A DNA stretch of 64,000 nt, taken from NCBI RefSeq assembly GCF_000799165.1, contig NZ_JUGF01000002.1, positions 248,001-312,000 of the forward strand, in the 5' to 3' direction. The notes below the pieces were generated by a model, which was not told where the DNA came from, did no database searches, and worked only from the letters and a program-made list of their open reading frames with translations. The first letter of the stretch is position 1. Every line of letters begins with the position of its first letter. Below, in pieces: positions 50,297-58,521 of this stretch. This stretch comes from Methylotenera versatilis 7. Lineage in GTDB: Bacteria; Pseudomonadota; Gammaproteobacteria; Burkholderiales; Methylophilaceae. The position numbers were made by a program, and so were the translations under genes.

Positions 50297-51385
50297 ATGA
50301 AAGTAGCCACTGGATTAGCAATAGGTAATAAAGCTTTGCCAGAACTGGCAGCGCAGGCGGTTCTAGCCGCAATGGAAAAAGCGCAACTGGATTCACCGGC
50401 CTGTGTGTTGTTATTTTTAACTTCAGAATTTGCTTCCCAGCCACAATTGGCGATTAAAGCCGCCGCAAAAGCCGCGAGTTGTATGCAAATAATCGGCTGT
50501 TCTTCCATTGGCATTTTTACGGAAGAAGATTGGGTGATTGATAGTCCTGCCGCTGCCGCGATGGTTTTTTCTGAAAATATCTGGTTAAAACCACCCAAAA
50601 ACACATTATTAACAAAGGAGTCGACATTACTCACATTAACCGCGCCCAACGCAATCAATAGTTTATGGTTAGATTCAAATGCCGTTCGATTTGGCGGCGT
50701 TTCTGGCGATGCAATTGGCCACGGCTCTTTTTCTGTGTGGGAAAATGCAAAAGGCATTACGCAAGGTTTATGTGAAATGCAATTAAGTAACATGGATTGC
50801 GCAGTTGGCGCTACACACGGTTTAAAATTAATCACTAGCCCACGCAGAATTACTGCTTGCAATCAACATGACATCATTCATATTGCTAATTTGTCCGCAT
50901 TAAGCGTATTAAAATCTGCCTGGAACAAACATGCGCCAATTAATGAAACATCAATACCTTATCATCGGCTGATGGCTGTGCATGCCACACGCGCATCGCA
51001 TATTGAGCATGGCGATTATTCACTTACGACGATTATCACAGGAGATGAAGCCTCCGGTGCAGTGACACTCGCCAAACCATTGCAAGTCGGTGATTGGGTA
51101 AGCTGGGCGGTGCGCGATATTGATGCAGCACAAGTGGATTTAGTGAAAACAGCGACGCAACTTAAACAACAATTATCGGTAAAACCACGGTTTTCTTTAC
51201 TGTTTTCAAATCTGGGGCGTGGCCCTTATTTTTATGACGGCATCGATCAGGATTTAGCTTTGATTCGCACGTTATTTCCGCATTTACCGTTAATCGGTTT
51301 TTATGGCAATGGTGAGATTGCACCTATTTTAGGTAACAACACATTGTTGCAATACTCTGCAGTTTTAGGACTTTTCGGGCGTTAA
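50297..51385 (+). CDS. FIST domain sensory protein
   Basis: A 362-residue cytoplasmic protein with both FIST parts: an N-terminal domain (MKVATGLAIGNKALPELAAQA, MQIIGCSSIGIFTEE) and a C-terminal FIST_C domain (FSNLGRGPYFYDGIDQDLALI, LPLIGFYGNGEIAP). FIST domains are small-ligand sensors usually attached to signalling modules, but here the domain stands alone. It starts 2 bases after nth and runs into DUF1841, so a single transcript is likely. Confidence 0.9.
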   Translation: MKVATGLAIGNKALPELAAQAVLAAMEKAQLDSPACVLLFLTSEFASQPQLAIKAAAKAASCMQIIGCSSIGIFTEEDWVIDSPAAAAMVFSENIWLKPPKNTLLTKESTLLTLTAPNAINSLWLDSNAVRFGGVSGDAIGHGSFSVWENAKGITQGLCEMQLSNMDCAVGATHGLKLITSPRRITACNQHDIIHIANLSALSVLKSAWNKHAPINETSIPYHRLMAVHATRASHIEHGDYSLTTIITGDEASGAVTLAKPLQVGDWVSWAVRDIDAAQVDLVKTATQLKQQLSVKPRFSLLFSNLGRGPYFYDGIDQDLALIRTLFPHLPLIGFYGNGEIAPILGNNTLLQYSAVLGLFGR

Positions 51386-51386
51386 C

Positions 51387-51833
51387 ATGGCTTTATTCAA
51401 TCCTACTCGCGATGAAGTACGCGAATTCTTTTTTGGCACTTGGGCAAAACTCAAAGCGCAACAGACATTAACGGATTTAGAAAAACTCGGCTTAAACGTG
51501 ATGCAGATGCATCCTGAATATCATGCCATTCTAAATGCGCCAGAACACTATAAACAGGTCGCGTATTATCCGGAAATGGGTGAAACCAATCCGTTCCTGC
51601 ACATGAGTCTGCACCTATCTATATTGGAACAAATCAGCATAAATCAGCCCATTGGCATTGCGCCGATTTATGAACAGTTAAAAATCAAACATCAAAATGC
51701 ACACGATGCCTTGCATGATATTCTGGATTGCCTAGCTGAAACCATCTGGCTGGCGCAACGTAACAATACCGGTTTAGATAGCGCACATTATTTAAAATTA
51801 TTACAGCAAAAAGCAGGGCTTAATCATGTATAA
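51387..51833 (+). CDS. DUF1841 family protein
   Basis: A 148-residue helical soluble protein with the family start FNPTRDEVREFFFGTWAK and the block NPFLHMSLHLSILEQI. The function is unknown. It begins one base after the FIST stop, ending the RnfB-like/nth/FIST/DUF1841 run. Confidence 0.92.
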   Translation: MALFNPTRDEVREFFFGTWAKLKAQQTLTDLEKLGLNVMQMHPEYHAILNAPEHYKQVAYYPEMGETNPFLHMSLHLSILEQISINQPIGIAPIYEQLKIKHQNAHDALHDILDCLAETIWLAQRNNTGLDSAHYLKLLQQKAGLNHV

Positions 51834-51899
51834 GCTTAGCCATGAATAACTCAATGCTTCAAGTTGCTTAATTTTTATTGTCATGATTGAATATTAAGC

Positions 51900-52454
51900 A
51901 TGGAACCAAGCAATATGCATGATTGGCTTAGCCAGCACGGGGATTTTTTATACCGTTTTGCGTTGGCCCGTTTGCGTGACCCGCACTTGGCGGAAGACGT
52001 GGTACAGGAGACGTTTTTAGCGGCCATCAAAAGTCCTTCTTTTTCTGGCGACTCATCGCCTCGCACTTGGTTAACCGGCATTTTAAAACATAAGATTATT
52101 GATGTAATGCGCAAAAACAGTCGCGAAATCGCTGCCAGCGATTTGACGTCTGACGCTGACGCCAATATGGACGAATTTTTTGATGAGACAGGGCATTGGA
52201 TTGAAGAGCCAATGGCTTGGAATATGCCTGAAGATGCTTTGGAGCAAAAACAGTTTTTGCGTATATTGCAAAGCTGCATGGATAAATTGCCTGCCAAACT
52301 AGCTACGCTATTGATGCTACGCGATGTGCATGAAACCGATAATGCAGAAATCTGTAAGGAACTGAACATCACCACGACCAATGCTTGGGTGATGTTATAC
52401 AGGGCCAGAATGAGTATTCGAAAGTGTTTGGAAATCAATTGGTTAAGTGCTTAA
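51900..52454 (+). CDS. ECF-type RNA polymerase sigma factor
   Basis: A 184-residue sigma-70 family protein. Region 2 (LYRFALARLRDPHLAEDVVQETFLAAIKS; PRTWLTGILKHKIIDVMRKNSRE) and region 4 (KLATLLMLRDVHETDNAEICKELNITTTNAWVMLYRARMSIRKCL) are complete, joined by an acidic linker. A zinc-finger anti-sigma gene follows after 10 bases and a bufferin-type operon after that, so this factor probably controls the operon. Confidence 0.92.
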   Translation: MEPSNMHDWLSQHGDFLYRFALARLRDPHLAEDVVQETFLAAIKSPSFSGDSSPRTWLTGILKHKIIDVMRKNSREIAASDLTSDADANMDEFFDETGHWIEEPMAWNMPEDALEQKQFLRILQSCMDKLPAKLATLLMLRDVHETDNAEICKELNITTTNAWVMLYRARMSIRKCLEINWLSA

Positions 52455-52464
52455 TTAGTTAGAT

Positions 52465-52716
52465 ATGTTGAATTGTAGAGAAACCACTCAACTTGTTTCA
52501 AAATCGCTAGATCGCCATCTAACCTGGCGTGAACGTTTTGCGGTAAATCTACACTTAATCATATGTAAATACTGTAAGCGTTTTAGTCAGCAACTAATAG
52601 CGATGCGCTCGGCATTCAATCGCATATCCAAATTGATTGAAAACGATCACAATATTCAATTACCATCGGCAACTAAAACCCGTATCACCAACGCAATTGA
52701 ATCTATAAAAGACTAA
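52465..52716 (+). CDS. zinc-finger anti-sigma factor (zf-HC2 type)
   Basis: An 83-residue protein with a His-x3-Cys-x2-Cys core (HLIICKYC), the hallmark of ZAS/zf-HC2 anti-sigma domains, and an N-terminal Cys (MLNCRETT). It has no membrane helix, so it is a soluble regulator that would bind the sigma factor encoded just before it. Release by metal or thiol stress is typical of the family and is inferred here. Confidence 0.88.
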   Translation: MLNCRETTQLVSKSLDRHLTWRERFAVNLHLIICKYCKRFSQQLIAMRSAFNRISKLIENDHNIQLPSATKTRITNAIESIKD

Positions 52717-52861
52717 ATTGCGTATATAACTTGGCAGACAGCAAATAAATAGGCGCAATAATTAAGCAAAATTTATTGATTAAAACCTCATAAGATTTGT
52801 TTTATTGGGATTTATTTGACTTAATTTAATTTATCAACTGAAACTTAAAAGGATACAAACC

Positions 52862-53188
52862 ATGAAAACCTCAAACCAAACAGTCGCTTTAGCATTATCC
52901 AGTGCATTCGCTTTATCCATCGGCACAGCAACAGTTAACGCGGCAGAAAATCCTTTTGCAATTAAATCGCTATCAAACGGGTATCAGGTAGCCGACCACC
53001 ATGAGAAAACCAAAGATGGCAAATGTGGCGAAGGTAAATGTAGTGCGGAAATGAAAAATGAAGCGGCGAAAGCCAAAGATGGTAAATGCGGTGAAGGCAA
53101 ATGCAGTGCGGAAATGAAAAAAGATGCTGCAAAAGCGCATGATGGCAAATGTGGCGAAGGTAAATGCGGTGCAGAAAAAGCGAAGTAA
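52862..53188 (+). CDS. bufferin-type RiPP precursor (BufA/HvfA-like)
   Basis: A 108-residue precursor. Residues 1 to about 27 are a Sec-type signal (ALALSSAFALSIGTATVNAA), and a spacer includes ENPFAIKSLSNGYQVADHHEK. Residues 51-108 contain three copies of a 21-residue unit with core KCGEGKC, giving six cysteines, with Lys/Glu/Ala linkers (last copy shortened). EGKC motifs are the sites modified by MNIO enzymes in bufferins and HvfA, where they bind copper. AAAGGA is placed well before ATG. The modifying-enzyme genes follow at once. Confidence 0.85.
   Translation: MKTSNQTVALALSSAFALSIGTATVNAAENPFAIKSLSNGYQVADHHEKTKDGKCGEGKCSAEMKNEAAKAKDGKCGEGKCSAEMKKDAAKAHDGKCGEGKCGAEKAK
53012..53185 (+). 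repeat. 63-bp tandem repeats inside the precursor gene
   Basis: Copies start at 53012, 53075 and 53138, the last cut to 48 bases. Units are nearly identical, with differences mostly at synonymous third positions, so the repeats are under coding constraint and copy number could vary by slippage. Confidence 0.85.
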
Positions 53189-53226
53189 TTGTTCATAGAA
53201 TTGAATAAAGCTATAGCGCAATCATT

Positions 53227-54177
53227 GTGTCATCTTTAGCGGAAATTAAAGGCGCGGGTTTGGGGTTAAAGCGCGAGCTGATTCCTCAAATCCAAAACCT
53301 GTACCAAGAGCCTTACAATGCAGAGTCTTCCAATCAAGACGCATCTATCGCAAATATTCATTTTGTCGAAATCGCGCCTGAAAACTGGATCAATGCCGGC
53401 GGCAAAGCTGAGGCAGATTTAGCCTGGTTTATAGAACGCTATCCCATTGTCTGCCACGGTTTGTGTTTATCGCTGGGTGGCCCAGACCCGCTGAATACAG
53501 ATTTCTTAAAACAGGTTAAACAGTTTTTATCGGCTAATAAAATCCCGCTATATACCGAACATCTAAGTTATTGCAGCGATTACTATCAAAACCAGCCGGG
53601 CTATTTGTATGACTTACTGCCCATTCCCTTTACGGAAGAGGCGGTTAAATATGTCGCACAACGCATTCGCCAAACGCAAGATATTTTAGGCCAGCGCATT
53701 GCCATAGAAAATGCCTCTTTTTATGCCGCCGCGCCGATTTCAACCATGGATGAAATCACTTTTTTAAATGCCGTGCTGCAGGAAGCGGACTGCTGGCTGC
53801 ACTTAGACATTAATAATATTTACGTGAATAGCGTGAATTTTGCTCAACAACAAGACCCAATAAAACTCGCGCAGGATTTTTTACACCGCATACCTGCCGA
53901 ACGCATTATTTACAGCCATATTGCTGGCCATTACCAGCAATCGCCAAACTTATTAATTGATACACACGGCAAAGATGTGATTGACCCCGTGTGGGATTTA
54001 TTAGACACCGCCTATCGATTATTCGGCATTTTCCCGACTCTTTTAGAGCGCGACAATAATGTTCCGCCATTGCCAATACTGATGCGCGAAGTGAATAAAA
54101 TAGCCGCATACCAGGCAAATCACCAAAACAAGCAACCTGTTAATTTCCAACAAAACTTAACGCGCGTTATATGTTAG
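53227..54177 (+). CDS. DUF692 / MNIO-family peptide-modifying enzyme (BufB-like)
   Basis: A 316-residue TIM-barrel enzyme of the DUF692/multinuclear non-heme iron oxidative (MNIO) family, related to MbnB. Candidate metal ligands are visible in order: HFVEIAPENW, VCHGLCLSLGG, LYTEHLSY, IAIENASF, LHLDINNIYVNS, YSHIAGH, DTHGKDV and LERDN. Such enzymes oxidise precursor cysteines to thiazole/oxazolone-type groups. It starts with GTG 39 bases after the precursor gene and overlaps the partner gene by 7 bases. Confidence 0.9.
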   Translation: MSSLAEIKGAGLGLKRELIPQIQNLYQEPYNAESSNQDASIANIHFVEIAPENWINAGGKAEADLAWFIERYPIVCHGLCLSLGGPDPLNTDFLKQVKQFLSANKIPLYTEHLSYCSDYYQNQPGYLYDLLPIPFTEEAVKYVAQRIRQTQDILGQRIAIENASFYAAAPISTMDEITFLNAVLQEADCWLHLDINNIYVNSVNFAQQQDPIKLAQDFLHRIPAERIIYSHIAGHYQQSPNLLIDTHGKDVIDPVWDLLDTAYRLFGIFPTLLERDNNVPPLPILMREVNKIAAYQANHQNKQPVNFQQNLTRVIC

Positions 54178-54905
54178 ATTTCCAGCGCTATCAACTGGCA
54201 TTTACTGCGCATATTCGCAATCCTGAATTGCACCCCAAACCTGCCAACGTAATTGAAAATCGCATGGCGGTTTATCGCGAATCGGTATTTAACAATATCT
54301 TTGAGTCCGTTTCTGTTTGCTTTCCTGTGTGTCAAAACGTACTGGGTAAGCGTAAGTGGCATCATTTAATACGTAATTTTGTCGCTAATTATTCTGCCAA
54401 TAGCCCACTTTTTAGAGAAATTCCACAGCAGTTTTTAGCATTTTTAGAAAGCATTACGGATTTACCACCTTACCTTATACCGCTTGCGCATTACGAATGG
54501 GTAGAGCTGGCGATTAGCAGCCAACAAACCCGTGCGCAATCAATACAGCAAACGTTGAGTACAGAATCAAATTGTTTAGACAATGTGATTACCCTTACAC
54601 CCGCCAGCACGTTATTGGCTTACGATTACCCAGTACACAAAATATCAAAGCGCTTTAAACCCACCATCATTGAAAAAACTTATCTACTCGTCTTCAGGAA
54701 TACCAGTTTTGAAGTTAAATTTATTGCGCTTAACTCTGTCACGTTTAATCTTTTATTGCACATCCAGTCACAGCCATCAACTGGCAGGCTTGCATTAGCA
54801 GCTCTCGCCAATGAGTCACAATATCCAGATTTAGAGTTATTCATGCGATTCGGTGCAGAAATTCTGGATGACTTGTGCAAACAACAAGCAATCACATTAA
54901 GTTAA
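54171..54905 (+). CDS. DUF2063 partner protein (BufC/MbnC-like)
   Basis: A 244-residue protein whose N-terminal half matches DUF2063: MLDFQRYQLAFTAHIRNP, then ENRMAVYRESVFNNIFESVSVCFPV. The C-terminal half is a mixed domain (YDYPVHKISKRF, LERGD-like tail absent). Partners of this type bind the precursor leader and the MNIO enzyme. The 7-base overlap with the enzyme gene implies tight coupling. No DoxX-like gene follows; the next gene is a TetR regulator of an efflux operon. Confidence 0.88.
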   Translation: MLDFQRYQLAFTAHIRNPELHPKPANVIENRMAVYRESVFNNIFESVSVCFPVCQNVLGKRKWHHLIRNFVANYSANSPLFREIPQQFLAFLESITDLPPYLIPLAHYEWVELAISSQQTRAQSIQQTLSTESNCLDNVITLTPASTLLAYDYPVHKISKRFKPTIIEKTYLLVFRNTSFEVKFIALNSVTFNLLLHIQSQPSTGRLALAALANESQYPDLELFMRFGAEILDDLCKQQAITLS

Positions 54906-54989: not shown

Positions 54990-55021
54990 AATAATTAAAT
55001 CAATCGTTTGATTTAATTATT
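54990..55021. promoter_or_regulatory. 32-bp palindrome, candidate operator of the TetR/RND operon
   Basis: Two perfect 14-bp arms (54990-55003 and 55008-55021) flank a 4-base TCGT centre; the core is TCAATCGTTTGA. It overlaps the TTG start codon of the regulator gene, as a self-repressing operator would. Confidence 0.7.
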
Positions 55022-55739
55022 GGCTGATGCAGAATATCGGCTTAAAAATGGAGTAGTTAAAATAAAAATTTGTGAATTACTATCGCCTAAGCGTGCGGAT
55101 GGTGAGGAATCCAGAAAGCGCATGTTGATGGCTGGGCTTAAGTTGTTCGCTGAGCATGGCTATGCGCGTACGTCTACCAGACAAATAGCCAAAGAAGCGC
55201 AAGTGAATATATCAGCGATTGCCTACTATTTTGGCGACAAAGCGGGCTTATATCGCGTTGTATTTACAGAGTCCTATGGCAAAATGGCGAATGATATTAC
55301 TTTATTTAGCGATGTTAATTTAACCCTAGAACAAGCATTAAGTGCACTATTTCAGGGTTTTATTGGTCCGCTTAAATTAGGCAATATAGCAAAACTACAT
55401 ATCCGTTTGCATATGCGTGAAATGGTTGAGCCAACCGGTATATGGGAAGAAAAAGTTGATAATGGCATTGCGCCGTATCATCAAGCTTTGCTTGTGTTAC
55501 TGCAAAAACATTTAGGCATCACCAAAGTGGATGATGATTTACACCGTTTAGCACTCTGTATTGTGGCGATGGGCGTGCATCTTTTTACGGGTCGCGATGT
55601 AATAGAACGTATGACACCCTCTCTCACGGCAACACACGAAGCACTGGATGTGCTGCATGAAAGACTCACTTTTTTTGCGGTGAACATGGTGCATGCTGAA
55701 GCTGACAGGCGCAAAAATTTGCAGGAAATCGTTAAATAA
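55020..55739 (+). CDS. TetR/CecR-family regulator of the efflux operon
   Basis: A 239-residue regulator. The HTH is TRQIAKEAQVNISAIAYYFGDKAGLY at about residues 55-85, and the C-terminal part matches the DUF1956/CecR ligand domain (LHIRLHMREMVEPTGIWEE, LHRLALCIVAMGVHLFTGRD). The start is TTG at 55020, since no ATG precedes the HTH and the frame closes upstream; it lies inside the palindrome. It is first gene of the RND operon, two bases before the channel gene. Confidence 0.88.
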   Translation: MADAEYRLKNGVVKIKICELLSPKRADGEESRKRMLMAGLKLFAEHGYARTSTRQIAKEAQVNISAIAYYFGDKAGLYRVVFTESYGKMANDITLFSDVNLTLEQALSALFQGFIGPLKLGNIAKLHIRLHMREMVEPTGIWEEKVDNGIAPYHQALLVLLQKHLGITKVDDDLHRLALCIVAMGVHLFTGRDVIERMTPSLTATHEALDVLHERLTFFAVNMVHAEADRRKNLQEIVK

Positions 55740-55741
55740 AG

Positions 55742-57310
55742 ATGAATAAAATGCCCAAGCCATTTCCCCACATTATTTTTGCCAGCCTTTTGACTATTAC
55801 TCTATCAGGCTGTGCTTCTTTAGATTTTTTAAAAAATAAGGCCTCGCCCAAAGACACAATTGCTGCGACAAAAATCGCGCCGGCATGGCAAACCAGTTTG
55901 CCGCATGGCGGAGAGTTATCACAGTTACAGAAATTTTGGACACAATATAACGATGCGCTGTTACTGGAATTGATAGAAAAAGCGCAGACAGAATCCGTTA
56001 ATATCGCCACCGCAAGAACCAAAATTGCAGAAGCAAGAGCCAATCGAGTCAGTGCATATTCATCGTTACTGCCTACTTTAGATACCTCATTTTCGTCATC
56101 AAAAGCTGTGCAGCAACCAGCCATCGGCATGAGTGGCGCAAGTGCCATACCCATTGGAAGTGGGCAAGCAAGCGGTTTTGGCGCTGGCGCACAAGGTGGT
56201 CAAGCGATTACAACAAGCCAAGTCAATGCACAGGCGGCATGGGAACTGGATTTATTTGGCGCCAATCGTGGATTACTAAAAGCAGCACAAGCCCGTGAAA
56301 ACGCTGCCCAAGCAGGCTGGCATGATGCGCGTGTGGCCGTAGCAGCGGAGCTTGCCACGTCTTACTTTAATCAGCGTTTTTGCCAATTACAATTAAGCAT
56401 TAACCAGAACGATGCAAAATCGCGTGCAGAATCTGCACGTATCACCGAAATATCTTTCAAAGCCGGCTTTAGCGCCAGTGCCGATTATCAGTTGGCGCTT
56501 GCCAGCGCAGCCGATGCCGCGCAGCAGGTAAAAACACAACAGGCACAATGTGATTTAGGCATTAAAGAATTGGTTGCTCTGACCGATTTAGATGAAACCA
56601 CATTAAGGCAAAAACTTGCCGATACGACTTTTACGACCAATGAAAATAATCAAACGCTTTTTACCATTGCAGAAGTTCCTGCCACGATTATTAGTCAACG
56701 CCCAGATATTCTCAACGCGGAAGCCGACTTAATGACAGCCGCTGCGGAGGTGAAAAATACACAGGTACAACGTTTGCCGAAAGTCTCTCTTAACGGCTCA
56801 ATCGGCTGGATGCGACTTTCAGGTCCAGGCTTTAAGGGCGAAGGCGATATCTGGTCGTTAGGGCCAATTTCCATTACTTTGCCAATTTTTGATGCTGGGA
56901 AACGGAAAGCAAATGTAAATACTGCAGAAGCAAAATATGCAGAATCTGCAGCTAACTATCGTAGCAAAGTACGCTATGCAGTAAAAGAAGTAGAAGATGC
57001 GCTAGTGAATTTACACGCCAGCACAGATCGGCAAATGGATGTGCAAACAGCATTAAGTGGCTATCAAGCATCATTACTGGCGACAGAGCAAAAAGTTAGT
57101 GCAGGCTTTGCCAACTTAATCGAGCTAGAAGAAAACCGCCGTTATGCTCTGCAAGCGCAAACCAATCAAGTTAACGTATTAAAAGACCGTAATAATGCCT
57201 GGATAGCCTTGTACCGCGCGGCTGGCGGTGGCTGGCAGAATACAGGGTCTAAAGCTCAAGACAAAAATAGCACCGAAATTAACACTAAAAATACTCAAGA
57301 AAACAGGTAA
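55742..57310 (+). CDS. RND outer membrane channel lipoprotein (NodT family)
   Basis: A 522-residue TolC-like outer membrane factor with a lipobox ending at Cys24 (LSGC). OEP repeats are seen in YNDALLLELIEKAQTESVNIATARTKI and VPATIISQRPDILNAEADLM. A Gly/Ala/Gln-rich insert near residues 125-160 is unusual but in frame. It forms the exit channel for the pump encoded by the next two genes. Confidence 0.92.
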   Translation: MNKMPKPFPHIIFASLLTITLSGCASLDFLKNKASPKDTIAATKIAPAWQTSLPHGGELSQLQKFWTQYNDALLLELIEKAQTESVNIATARTKIAEARANRVSAYSSLLPTLDTSFSSSKAVQQPAIGMSGASAIPIGSGQASGFGAGAQGGQAITTSQVNAQAAWELDLFGANRGLLKAAQARENAAQAGWHDARVAVAAELATSYFNQRFCQLQLSINQNDAKSRAESARITEISFKAGFSASADYQLALASAADAAQQVKTQQAQCDLGIKELVALTDLDETTLRQKLADTTFTTNENNQTLFTIAEVPATIISQRPDILNAEADLMTAAAEVKNTQVQRLPKVSLNGSIGWMRLSGPGFKGEGDIWSLGPISITLPIFDAGKRKANVNTAEAKYAESAANYRSKVRYAVKEVEDALVNLHASTDRQMDVQTALSGYQASLLATEQKVSAGFANLIELEENRRYALQAQTNQVNVLKDRNNAWIALYRAAGGGWQNTGSKAQDKNSTEINTKNTQENR

Positions 57311-57315
57311 GTATC

Positions 57316-58521
57316 ATGTTTAAAAAAAATCGTATCCTTTGGATTATCTTGGCAATTGCGATTGCCTTGGCTGTCTATTTTTTGGTAATCAAACAAAAAT
57401 CGCCCGATTCTGAAGATGCATCTGCCGAAACACTTAAAGCTCAAGTATCAAATACTAATGCGGCGCTTACGGTAAATACCGTCAAAATAAAACGCACCAT
57501 GCTGAACTTAACCATCCCAGCCAACGGCAATATCGCAGCATGGCAAGAAGCAGTCGTGGGGGCAGAAGTAAATGGCTTATTGCTGAATGAGGTGTTGGTG
57601 AATGTGGGTGATTCGGTTAAACGCGGGCAAATACTGGCACGTTTTGCATCGGACACTATTTCAGCCGATTTAGCTCAAGCCAGTGCAAACCTTGCAGAAG
57701 CAAAAGCCGCAGCAATCGAAGCCGCTGGCAACGCTAGTCGTGCTAAAAGCATACAAAATTCAGGCGCATTAAGTACGCAACAGATCGAGCAATACTTAAG
57801 TGCAGAAGCCAGCACCAAAGCACGGGTTGAAGCCGCTGAAGCCACACTTAATCTACAGAATATCAAGCTAAAACAAACCACAGTCAATGCACCAGATGAC
57901 GGCATTATCTCATCGCGGACCGCAACCGTTGGCTCTGTTGCGGCGGCGGGGCAAGAGCTATTTAAACTGGTGCGCAAAGGTCGTTTAGAGTGGCGCGCAG
58001 AACTGACATCAGCAGATATCAATAAAATACATATCGGCATGAAAACGGACTTAACACTTCCCGATGGGCACATTTTAACGGGAAAAGTACGCGCAATTGC
58101 GCCGAGTATTGATAGCCAAACACGTAATGCCTTGGTGTATGTGGATATCCCTGCAGATACAGCCAAAGCTGGCATGTATGCGCGAGGAGTATTTGTACTG
58201 GAAAATACAGAAGCTTATACCTTGCCTGCCGATGCGATTGTGCTGCGAGATGGCTTCGCCTACGCGATGCAGGTGATAGCCAAGCCAGTTGATAAAAATA
58301 GCCCTGCGCAAACTGACGGATTGAATCCAATCGCCCAAATCAAACAAATAAAGGTAAACACAGGAAGGCGCAGTGGTGACTTAGTTGAGCTATTAGATGT
58401 TGAAGACCAAACATTGAAAAATAACTTTGTTGCCAGTGGCGGTGCATTTTTAGCCGATGGCGATACGGTTAGAGTCGTGCCTAAAAATGAGCGTGTTTCA
58501 ACTGAAAGTGTTGCAAGATGA
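57316..58521 (+). CDS. RND periplasmic adaptor (membrane fusion protein)
   Basis: A 401-residue adaptor with one N-terminal membrane helix (RILWIILAIAIALAVYFLVI) and no lipobox. A barrel-sandwich region (VVGAEVNGLLLNEVLVNVGDSVKRGQIL), an Ala-rich coiled hairpin (residues 115-180) and a beta-barrel with VRAIAPSIDSQTRNALVYVDI follow. It links the inner membrane pump and the outer membrane channel. Its stop overlaps the pump start (ATGATGA). Confidence 0.93.
   Translation: MFKKNRILWIILAIAIALAVYFLVIKQKSPDSEDASAETLKAQVSNTNAALTVNTVKIKRTMLNLTIPANGNIAAWQEAVVGAEVNGLLLNEVLVNVGDSVKRGQILARFASDTISADLAQASANLAEAKAAAIEAAGNASRAKSIQNSGALSTQQIEQYLSAEASTKARVEAAEATLNLQNIKLKQTTVNAPDDGIISSRTATVGSVAAAGQELFKLVRKGRLEWRAELTSADINKIHIGMKTDLTLPDGHILTGKVRAIAPSIDSQTRNALVYVDIPADTAKAGMYARGVFVLENTEAYTLPADAIVLRDGFAYAMQVIAKPVDKNSPAQTDGLNPIAQIKQIKVNTGRRSGDLVELLDVEDQTLKNNFVASGGAFLADGDTVRVVPKNERVSTESVAR

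Follow-up and report, generated by a model that had tools for sequence, protein, structure and literature searches.

How is the operon for a predicted copper-binding peptide switched on when it lies directly behind the genes of a sigma factor and an anti-sigma factor? The question is raised by a locus of Methylotenera versatilis 7 within a 64,000-nucleotide stretch of contig NZ_JUGF01000002.1 (positions 248,001 to 312,000; hereafter the window, whose own numbering is used throughout). The five genes that a first-pass annotation had read there, for an extracytoplasmic function (ECF) sigma factor, a zf-HC2 protein, a cysteine-repeat precursor with a Sec leader, a DUF692 enzyme and a DUF2063 protein, are all present. 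Judged by its profile matches the cluster is an HvfA-HvfB-HvfC operon (oxazolin/captophorin, EGKCG) for a ribosomally synthesized and post-translationally modified peptide (RiPP), one more member of a known and very large class, and the new part is the control layout. We consider it quite likely that, in Methylophilaceae and related proteobacteria, the DNA encoding region 4 of the ECF sigma factor, the part that binds the -35 sequence, also contains a promoter recognized by that factor, that selection has fixed the silent positions of this promoter and that its output goes to the anti-sigma gene and the copper-peptide RiPP operon, with no positive feedback of sigma on itself. The features concerned are as follows.

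52353..52382, + strand: promoter-like element inside the sigma gene (Neisseria sigma-E resemblance, synonymous constraint, stand-alone copies)
51900..52454, + strand: ECF sigma factor of the TIGR02943 family (open reading frame (ORF) list, Pfam/NCBIfam)
52465..52716, + strand: zf-HC2 cytoplasmic zinc anti-sigma factor (ZAS; ORF list, Pfam/NCBIfam, residues)
52862..53188, + strand: HvfA-type precursor of 108 aa (ORF, NCBIfam; signal peptide by inspection)
53015..53167, + strand: precursor core repeats with six Cys, predicted 5-thiooxazole sites (sequence; motif rules of PMC13097082)
53227..54177, + strand: HvfB-type maturase (DUF692), a multinuclear non-haem iron-dependent oxidative enzyme (MNIO), with a GTG start (NCBIfam, alignments)
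54171..54905, + strand: HvfC-type partner (DUF2063 and a RiPP recognition element-like NGO1945_C domain), with a 7-base overlap with hvfB

The element resembles the promoters of Neisseria sigma-E, for which the published consensus is GTMAGBWTT at -35 and CGTCTAAH at -10 with a spacer of 12-13 (PMC2893595). Its -35 part, TGTAAGG, occupies 52353-52359 and its -10 part, CGACCAAT, lies at 52375-52382, the whole being placed 82 nt before the anti-sigma start; read as protein-coding sequence it comprises region 4 codons 152-161, TGT AAG GAA CTG AAC ATC ACC ACG ACC AAT. With a variant consensus taken from rearranged relatives (GTAAGGTTT, 12 or 13 bases, CGACTAAT; 17 scored positions), the sole sense-strand match of at least 13/17 in the entire window starts at 52354, inside the sigma gene. 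The original Neisseria consensus at 14/17 has no match in the window's cluster, and the element emerged once the -10 had been restated as CGACTAAT from the relatives; the consensus was in part chosen after looking, and the synonymous sites and the msrA genes considered below provide independent checks. No sigma-E-like promoter was found in the window before the sigma, precursor or hvfB genes. A search of the open-access literature, subscription papers lying outside it, turned up no intragenic sigma-dependent promoter for TIGR02943 sigma factors.

The first of these checks compared third codon positions in 27 sigma genes, represented by their best-scoring ORFs, with the expectation from each genome's own codon use. 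All 27 genes carry T as the third base of codon 152 (12.6 expected), G at codon 153 (10.2 expected) and G at codon 159 (8.0 expected), and these three are the most constrained of the 171 sigma codons. The register beginning at codon 152 ranks first among 1025 codon registers in six genes, a ranking that controls for shared ancestry. The encoded amino acids vary (CKALNITATN, CKALEISATN, CKVLGITATN), yet GTAAGG and CGACCAAT are unchanged, and the element is present in the sigma genes of other gammaproteobacteria as well (L208, L209; partly in others). A second strong synonymous constraint was seen elsewhere in the cluster, at hvfB codons 13-17 (53263-53277; GGG in 21/27, AAG in 27/27, GAG in 23/26), where a local hairpin in the window sequence was not significant.

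Relatives also carry the element as a stand-alone intergenic sequence. In L141 the sigma gene is divergent, and its codons (TGC CAG ...) no longer contain the element, which instead appears as a 17/17 copy immediately ahead of the anti-sigma gene; L155 likewise combines sigma codons devoid of the element with an intergenic copy. Copies precede the precursor gene in L155, L175 and L195, the sigma gene in L117 and hvfX in L091. At a threshold of at least 15/17, 751 kb of sequence held six sense matches, none in antisense and none to the reversed motif. In Neisseria, sigma-E controls the homologous operon together with msrAB (PMC2893595), and msrA was judged here solely because the Neisseria and Haemophilus systems had led us to expect it. 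An upstream copy scoring at least 14/17 precedes msrA in 11/19 family loci and in 0/11 order-level outgroups; the window's own genome is among the carriers (GTAATGTTTTGAGTGAAATGTTGACTAAC). A genome-wide scan with the consensus at up to 3 mismatches returned 12 and 15 places, not above the reversed control, and with counts at background such a scan cannot by itself define a regulon or name further targets. Control of the cluster and of msr by sigma-dependent promoters of related sequence is a prediction that sequence and conservation support. The first-pass annotation had placed the cluster under its own sigma/anti-sigma pair from adjacency alone; control as such now has support from the element within the sigma gene and from the intergenic copies of relatives.

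The pair and its position are themselves conserved. An MNIO of this type is found in 27 of the 37 family genomes, counting the window's. Most of these carriers share one gene order, FIST - DUF1841 - sigma - anti-sigma - precursor - hvfB - hvfC, which puts the clustering far beyond chance; further genomes, some of them Thiobacillus-like, likewise have the sigma and anti-sigma genes ahead of the cluster. The 83-residue anti-sigma protein has Cys4, His30, Cys34 and Cys37 (Cys4 plus Hx3Cx2C), retained in nearly all of the homologues listed, and these are the same residue numbers as those of the ZAS motif in meningococcal MseR (PMC2893595). In three relatives (L050, L057, L061) the sigma gene is in pieces and hvfB and hvfC are open; faulty assembly may be the cause, or the switch may have been lost. 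A second, more distant type of MNIO locus occurs in G001-G005, G007-G009, G014 and G016, mostly besides this one.

On this evidence we are fairly confident that the HvfABC operon is controlled by a sigma/zinc anti-sigma pair akin to Neisseria sigma-E/MseR, through a promoter embedded in the 3' coding sequence of the sigma gene. A housekeeping-type promoter would give weak transcription of the sigma gene, and the zinc anti-sigma factor would hold this low, constitutive supply of sigma. Thiol oxidation or metal displacement at the anti-sigma factor would free sigma, which would then fire the embedded promoter, giving one transcript for anti-sigma, precursor and maturases that would continue through the 145-bp gap ahead of the precursor gene, and would also fire msrA. 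With sigma not amplifying itself and the anti-sigma factor rising with output, the response would be both induced and self-limiting. In the cytoplasm HvfC would bring the precursor to the di-iron MNIO HvfB, the cysteines of the (D/E)GKC repeats would become 5-thiooxazoles, and the modified peptide, exported by Sec, would bind periplasmic or extracellular Cu(I). A candidate for the housekeeping promoter lies just before the sigma gene.

51864..51892, + strand: putative housekeeping promoter of the sigma gene (sigma-70-like, extended -10), TTGCTT - 17 bp - TTGAAT

The second hexamer of this block, TTGAAT, is preceded by TG, and the four nearest relatives of the window have the block as well, with the same 17-bp spacing, though one of them reads TTACTT; TGATTGAA also precedes the sigma gene in several further relatives. 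TTGCTT shares 3/6 bases with the -35 consensus, and the block was not marked by the generic sigma-70 and terminator scan, in which site numbers were no higher than in shuffles. If the block is real, sigma would be transcribed by housekeeping RNA polymerase with no autoactivation, and the +1 would be close to the ATG at 51900, possibly giving a leaderless mRNA. The window sequence at 51884-51898, ATGATTGAATATTAA, contains a conserved (A/G)TG(A/G)TTGAA that can be read either as a tiny leader ORF or as a -10 region.

The family assignments place the last three products within the HvfABC class. The sigma factor has Sigma70_r2 and r4_2 domains and scores 204 bits with TIGR02943 (cut-off 162), and the anti-sigma factor matches zf-HC2 and NF052368. 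The precursor scores 57.6 bits with NF050137 KCGExKCG_twice (cut-off 19.5) and 62.7 bits with the narrower equivalog model NF050188 HvfA, under its cut-off of 95. The MNIO reaches 311.6 bits with MbnB_TglH_ChrH and 370.8 with NF003818 HvfB (cut-off 360), while the partner has DUF2063 and NGO1945_C domains and 243.8 bits with NF050145 HvfC (cut-off 142). The label 'bufferin-type' of the first-pass annotation has accordingly to be replaced, NCBIfam naming the last three genes HvfA, HvfB and HvfC. A bufferin 1 or bufferin 2, defined by a DUF2282 or a 6/12-Cys bufferin precursor, was considered and rejected: the locus has no DUF2282 match, the precursor is of the HvfA family and the MNIO scores 242 with NF050167 BufB, below the cut-off of 310. 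The best named relatives of HvfB are from Methylotenera genomes, and its gene is the sole MNIO gene of the 2.5-Mb host genome; no hvfB relative was found in viral contigs, and no Rfam family matched between 49500 and 55800.

HvfB aligns with PDB entry 3bww (E 4.6e-67) across the motifs EIAPENW, HGLxLSLGG, LDxNNIYVN, HIAGH, DTHG and LLERD. The protein of this entry, which carries a di-iron site, shares 72% identity with Haemophilus HvfB, in which changes of Asn175, Asp242 or His244 to Ala abolish activity (PMC13419390). Both motifs containing the counterparts of these three residues, DxNN and DTH, are present in the window's HvfB, and an alignment of 13 homologues finds His77, Glu161, Asn196, Asn197, His231, Asp245, His247 and Glu274 invariant. 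Loss of the metal ligands from the DUF692 protein, named beforehand as a finding that would speak against the assignment, is not observed.

The precursor has a Sec signal peptide of approximately residues 1-27 (by inspection), followed by ENPFAIKSLSNGYQVAD, a stretch that most homologues share, and by three copies of DGKCGEGKC in a 21-residue repeat unit. All six of its cysteines (55, 60, 76, 81, 97 and 102) lie within these repeats, so that the figure of up to six modified cysteines given earlier stands as an upper bound. Their contexts are DGKCG (three), EGKCS (two) and EGKCG (one). In 27 precursors of the family, Cys is followed by Gly in 86 cases and Ser in 44, and preceded by Lys in 100 and Ser in 34. 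The FonBC enzymes fully modified a DGKCG variant, but no residue other than Gly or Ala was accepted behind Cys in their double-variant panel (PMC13097082). Because two of the six cysteines here are in EGKCS, either HvfB of this family accepts Ser after Cys or perhaps just about four of the six are modified. Several family precursors, among them L060, L087 and L089, have few or altered motifs (EGSC, EGNC, CH, CS; 2-8 Cys), and the FonBC motif rules may therefore not apply in this family.

The annotation's remark that a DoxX gene is missing was right for the locus, no such gene adjoining the cluster, but not in treating this as unusual. An HvfX-type gene directly follows hvfC in 4/26 family relatives; among 80 loci from other genomes, 28 have precursor-hvfB-hvfC alone and 20 have DoxX too, and the characterized fon cluster is likewise without it (PMC13097082). 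A distant DoxX protein was considered as the missing HvfX and rejected, the genome's two scoring 47 and 19 bits against an NF050144 cut-off of 80. Judged from these loci, DoxX/HvfX is not a required component of the class and its absence is ordinary.

By analogy with the characterized members the cysteines would be converted to 5-thiooxazoles and the peptide would bind copper. It is possible, if doubtful, that it serves another metal or defence against thiol stress or hypochlorite rather than copper buffering, which would fit a sigma regulon linked to oxidants and containing msrA: both sigma-E of Neisseria and RpoE2 of Haemophilus are tied to the repair of oxidative damage (PMC2893595, PMC7907618), and gold and oxidants likewise induce such clusters (PMC13097082). 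The characterized 5-thiooxazole peptides of the class, however, are for the most part Cu binders (PMC13097082).

Several observations weigh against the proposed scheme. Scored with the stand-alone consensus, the window's element reaches no more than 13/17. L062 has an intact sigma gene with AAG at codon 159, which breaks the C of the -10, and G014 has the msrA element while no sigma gene was detected in its assembly (89% complete). At the level of the peptide, the two cysteines in EGKCS mean that fewer than six may be modified. The 145-bp gap between the anti-sigma and precursor genes could hold another promoter, and G009 and G015 have kept the pair and the element with no hvf genes beside them, so that the anti-sigma gene, if nothing else, must be a target of the element and may be its main one. 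The last two points also favour an arrangement that we regard as unlikely, in which the RiPP operon is read with sigma from an upstream promoter, or from an unrecognized promoter in the gap, and the embedded element drives the anti-sigma gene only. There is a precedent in PrshA of Corynebacterium glutamicum, where a SigH-dependent promoter within sigH yields an rshA-only transcript with starts 62 and 66 nt ahead of rshA (PMC3489674). Set against this, the gap is merely some tens of bases in many relatives, no terminator-like site was found between the window's cluster genes, and where a relative has its precursor gene away from the pair or is without the embedded element (L155, L175, L195), a separate copy precedes the precursor. 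A cause other than a promoter for the fixed sigma codons (RNA structure, a translation signal for the anti-sigma start, codon-pair effects) is very improbable: hvfB codons 13-17 are under an unexplained constraint too and the window sequence alone folds there as a hairpin (z = -3.15), but the consensus fold of 30 sequences is negligible (-1.55 kcal/mol), the fixed positions fit an independently published bipartite sigma-E consensus, spacing included, and intergenic copies stand at the expected genes in relatives, also before msrA.

The layout can be compared with known systems. The sigma pair had been viewed as unusual, but a sigma/ZAS pair beside such genes is already known from the Neisseria operon NMB2140-2145 (PMC2893595). 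This sigma-E operon (NGO1948-1943, gonophorin) contains the sigma gene NMB2144 and MseR, NMB2145, and shares with the window the positions of the ZAS residues, msr genes in the regulon (msrAB there, msrA by prediction here) and a related promoter sequence and spacing. Its order is DoxX-precursor-MNIO-DUF2063-sigma-ZAS in one sigma-controlled unit, with NGO1945 at the DUF2063 place and the unnamed genes taken to be precursor and MNIO (PMC13097082); in the window sigma and anti-sigma come first and DoxX is lacking. The sigma-type promoter is upstream of the whole operon in Neisseria and, as proposed, inside the sigma gene in the window, so that the window's sigma factor would not be autoactivated. 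The Haemophilus hvf (oxazolin) system with RpoE2/HrsE has in common with the window the HvfA/B/C families, six cysteines in three double motifs, a small cytoplasmic ZAS anti-sigma factor and control of msr genes (msrAB there, msrA by prediction here). There, however, the sigma pair is beside msrAB and hvf includes DoxX (HvfX), whereas in the window the pair is attached to hvf and the repeats read DGKCGEGKC(S/G) in a 21-residue unit. Fontiphorin (fon) of Fontimonas thermophila, of the captophorin class, shares the minimal precursor-MNIO-PME1 set without DoxX and the EGKCG repeats; the window differs in having Ser after 2/6 cysteines and the attached sigma/anti-sigma pair. In C. glutamicum sigH-rshA, as proposed for the window, housekeeping promoters before the sigma gene are combined with a sigma-dependent promoter inside it for the anti-sigma gene, but the phylum is distant, the promoter sequence is another and the anti-sigma gene alone is served, whereas a RiPP operon follows in the window. 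Bufferin 1 (DUF2282) clusters with sigma/NrsF resemble the window in the MNIO/DUF2063 RiPP, the Sec leader and an ECF sigma system, but their precursor and anti-sigma (NrsF) families differ and the window is without DUF2282.

Two further genes are kept immediately upstream of sigma across the family.

50297..51385, + strand: FIST-domain sensor protein, encoded near sigma throughout the family (profile matches, family loci)
51387..51833, + strand: DUF1841 protein, kept neighbour in the family (profile matches, family loci)

Both are possible functional partners. In several gammaproteobacteria where no sigma pair is present, DUF1841 likewise adjoins hvf genes. Directly downstream of hvfC, at 55020-58521, are genes for a CecR/TetR-type regulator, an outer-membrane efflux protein and an HlyD/CusB-like adaptor, an efflux operon by its predicted products.

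The layout bears on the trigger of captophorin induction, which the literature has left open. It would add an example of a promoter held in coding sequence through selection on synonymous sites, a design known from a distant phylum in sigH-rshA. If the reading is true, the same stretch of DNA encodes the reader of a promoter and is the promoter read, and silent changes in one 30-bp element would uncouple the peptide operon from sigma with the proteins unaltered. In a free-living methylotroph family, a predicted copper peptide would be tied to methionine-sulfoxide repair through msrA, as in Neisseria.

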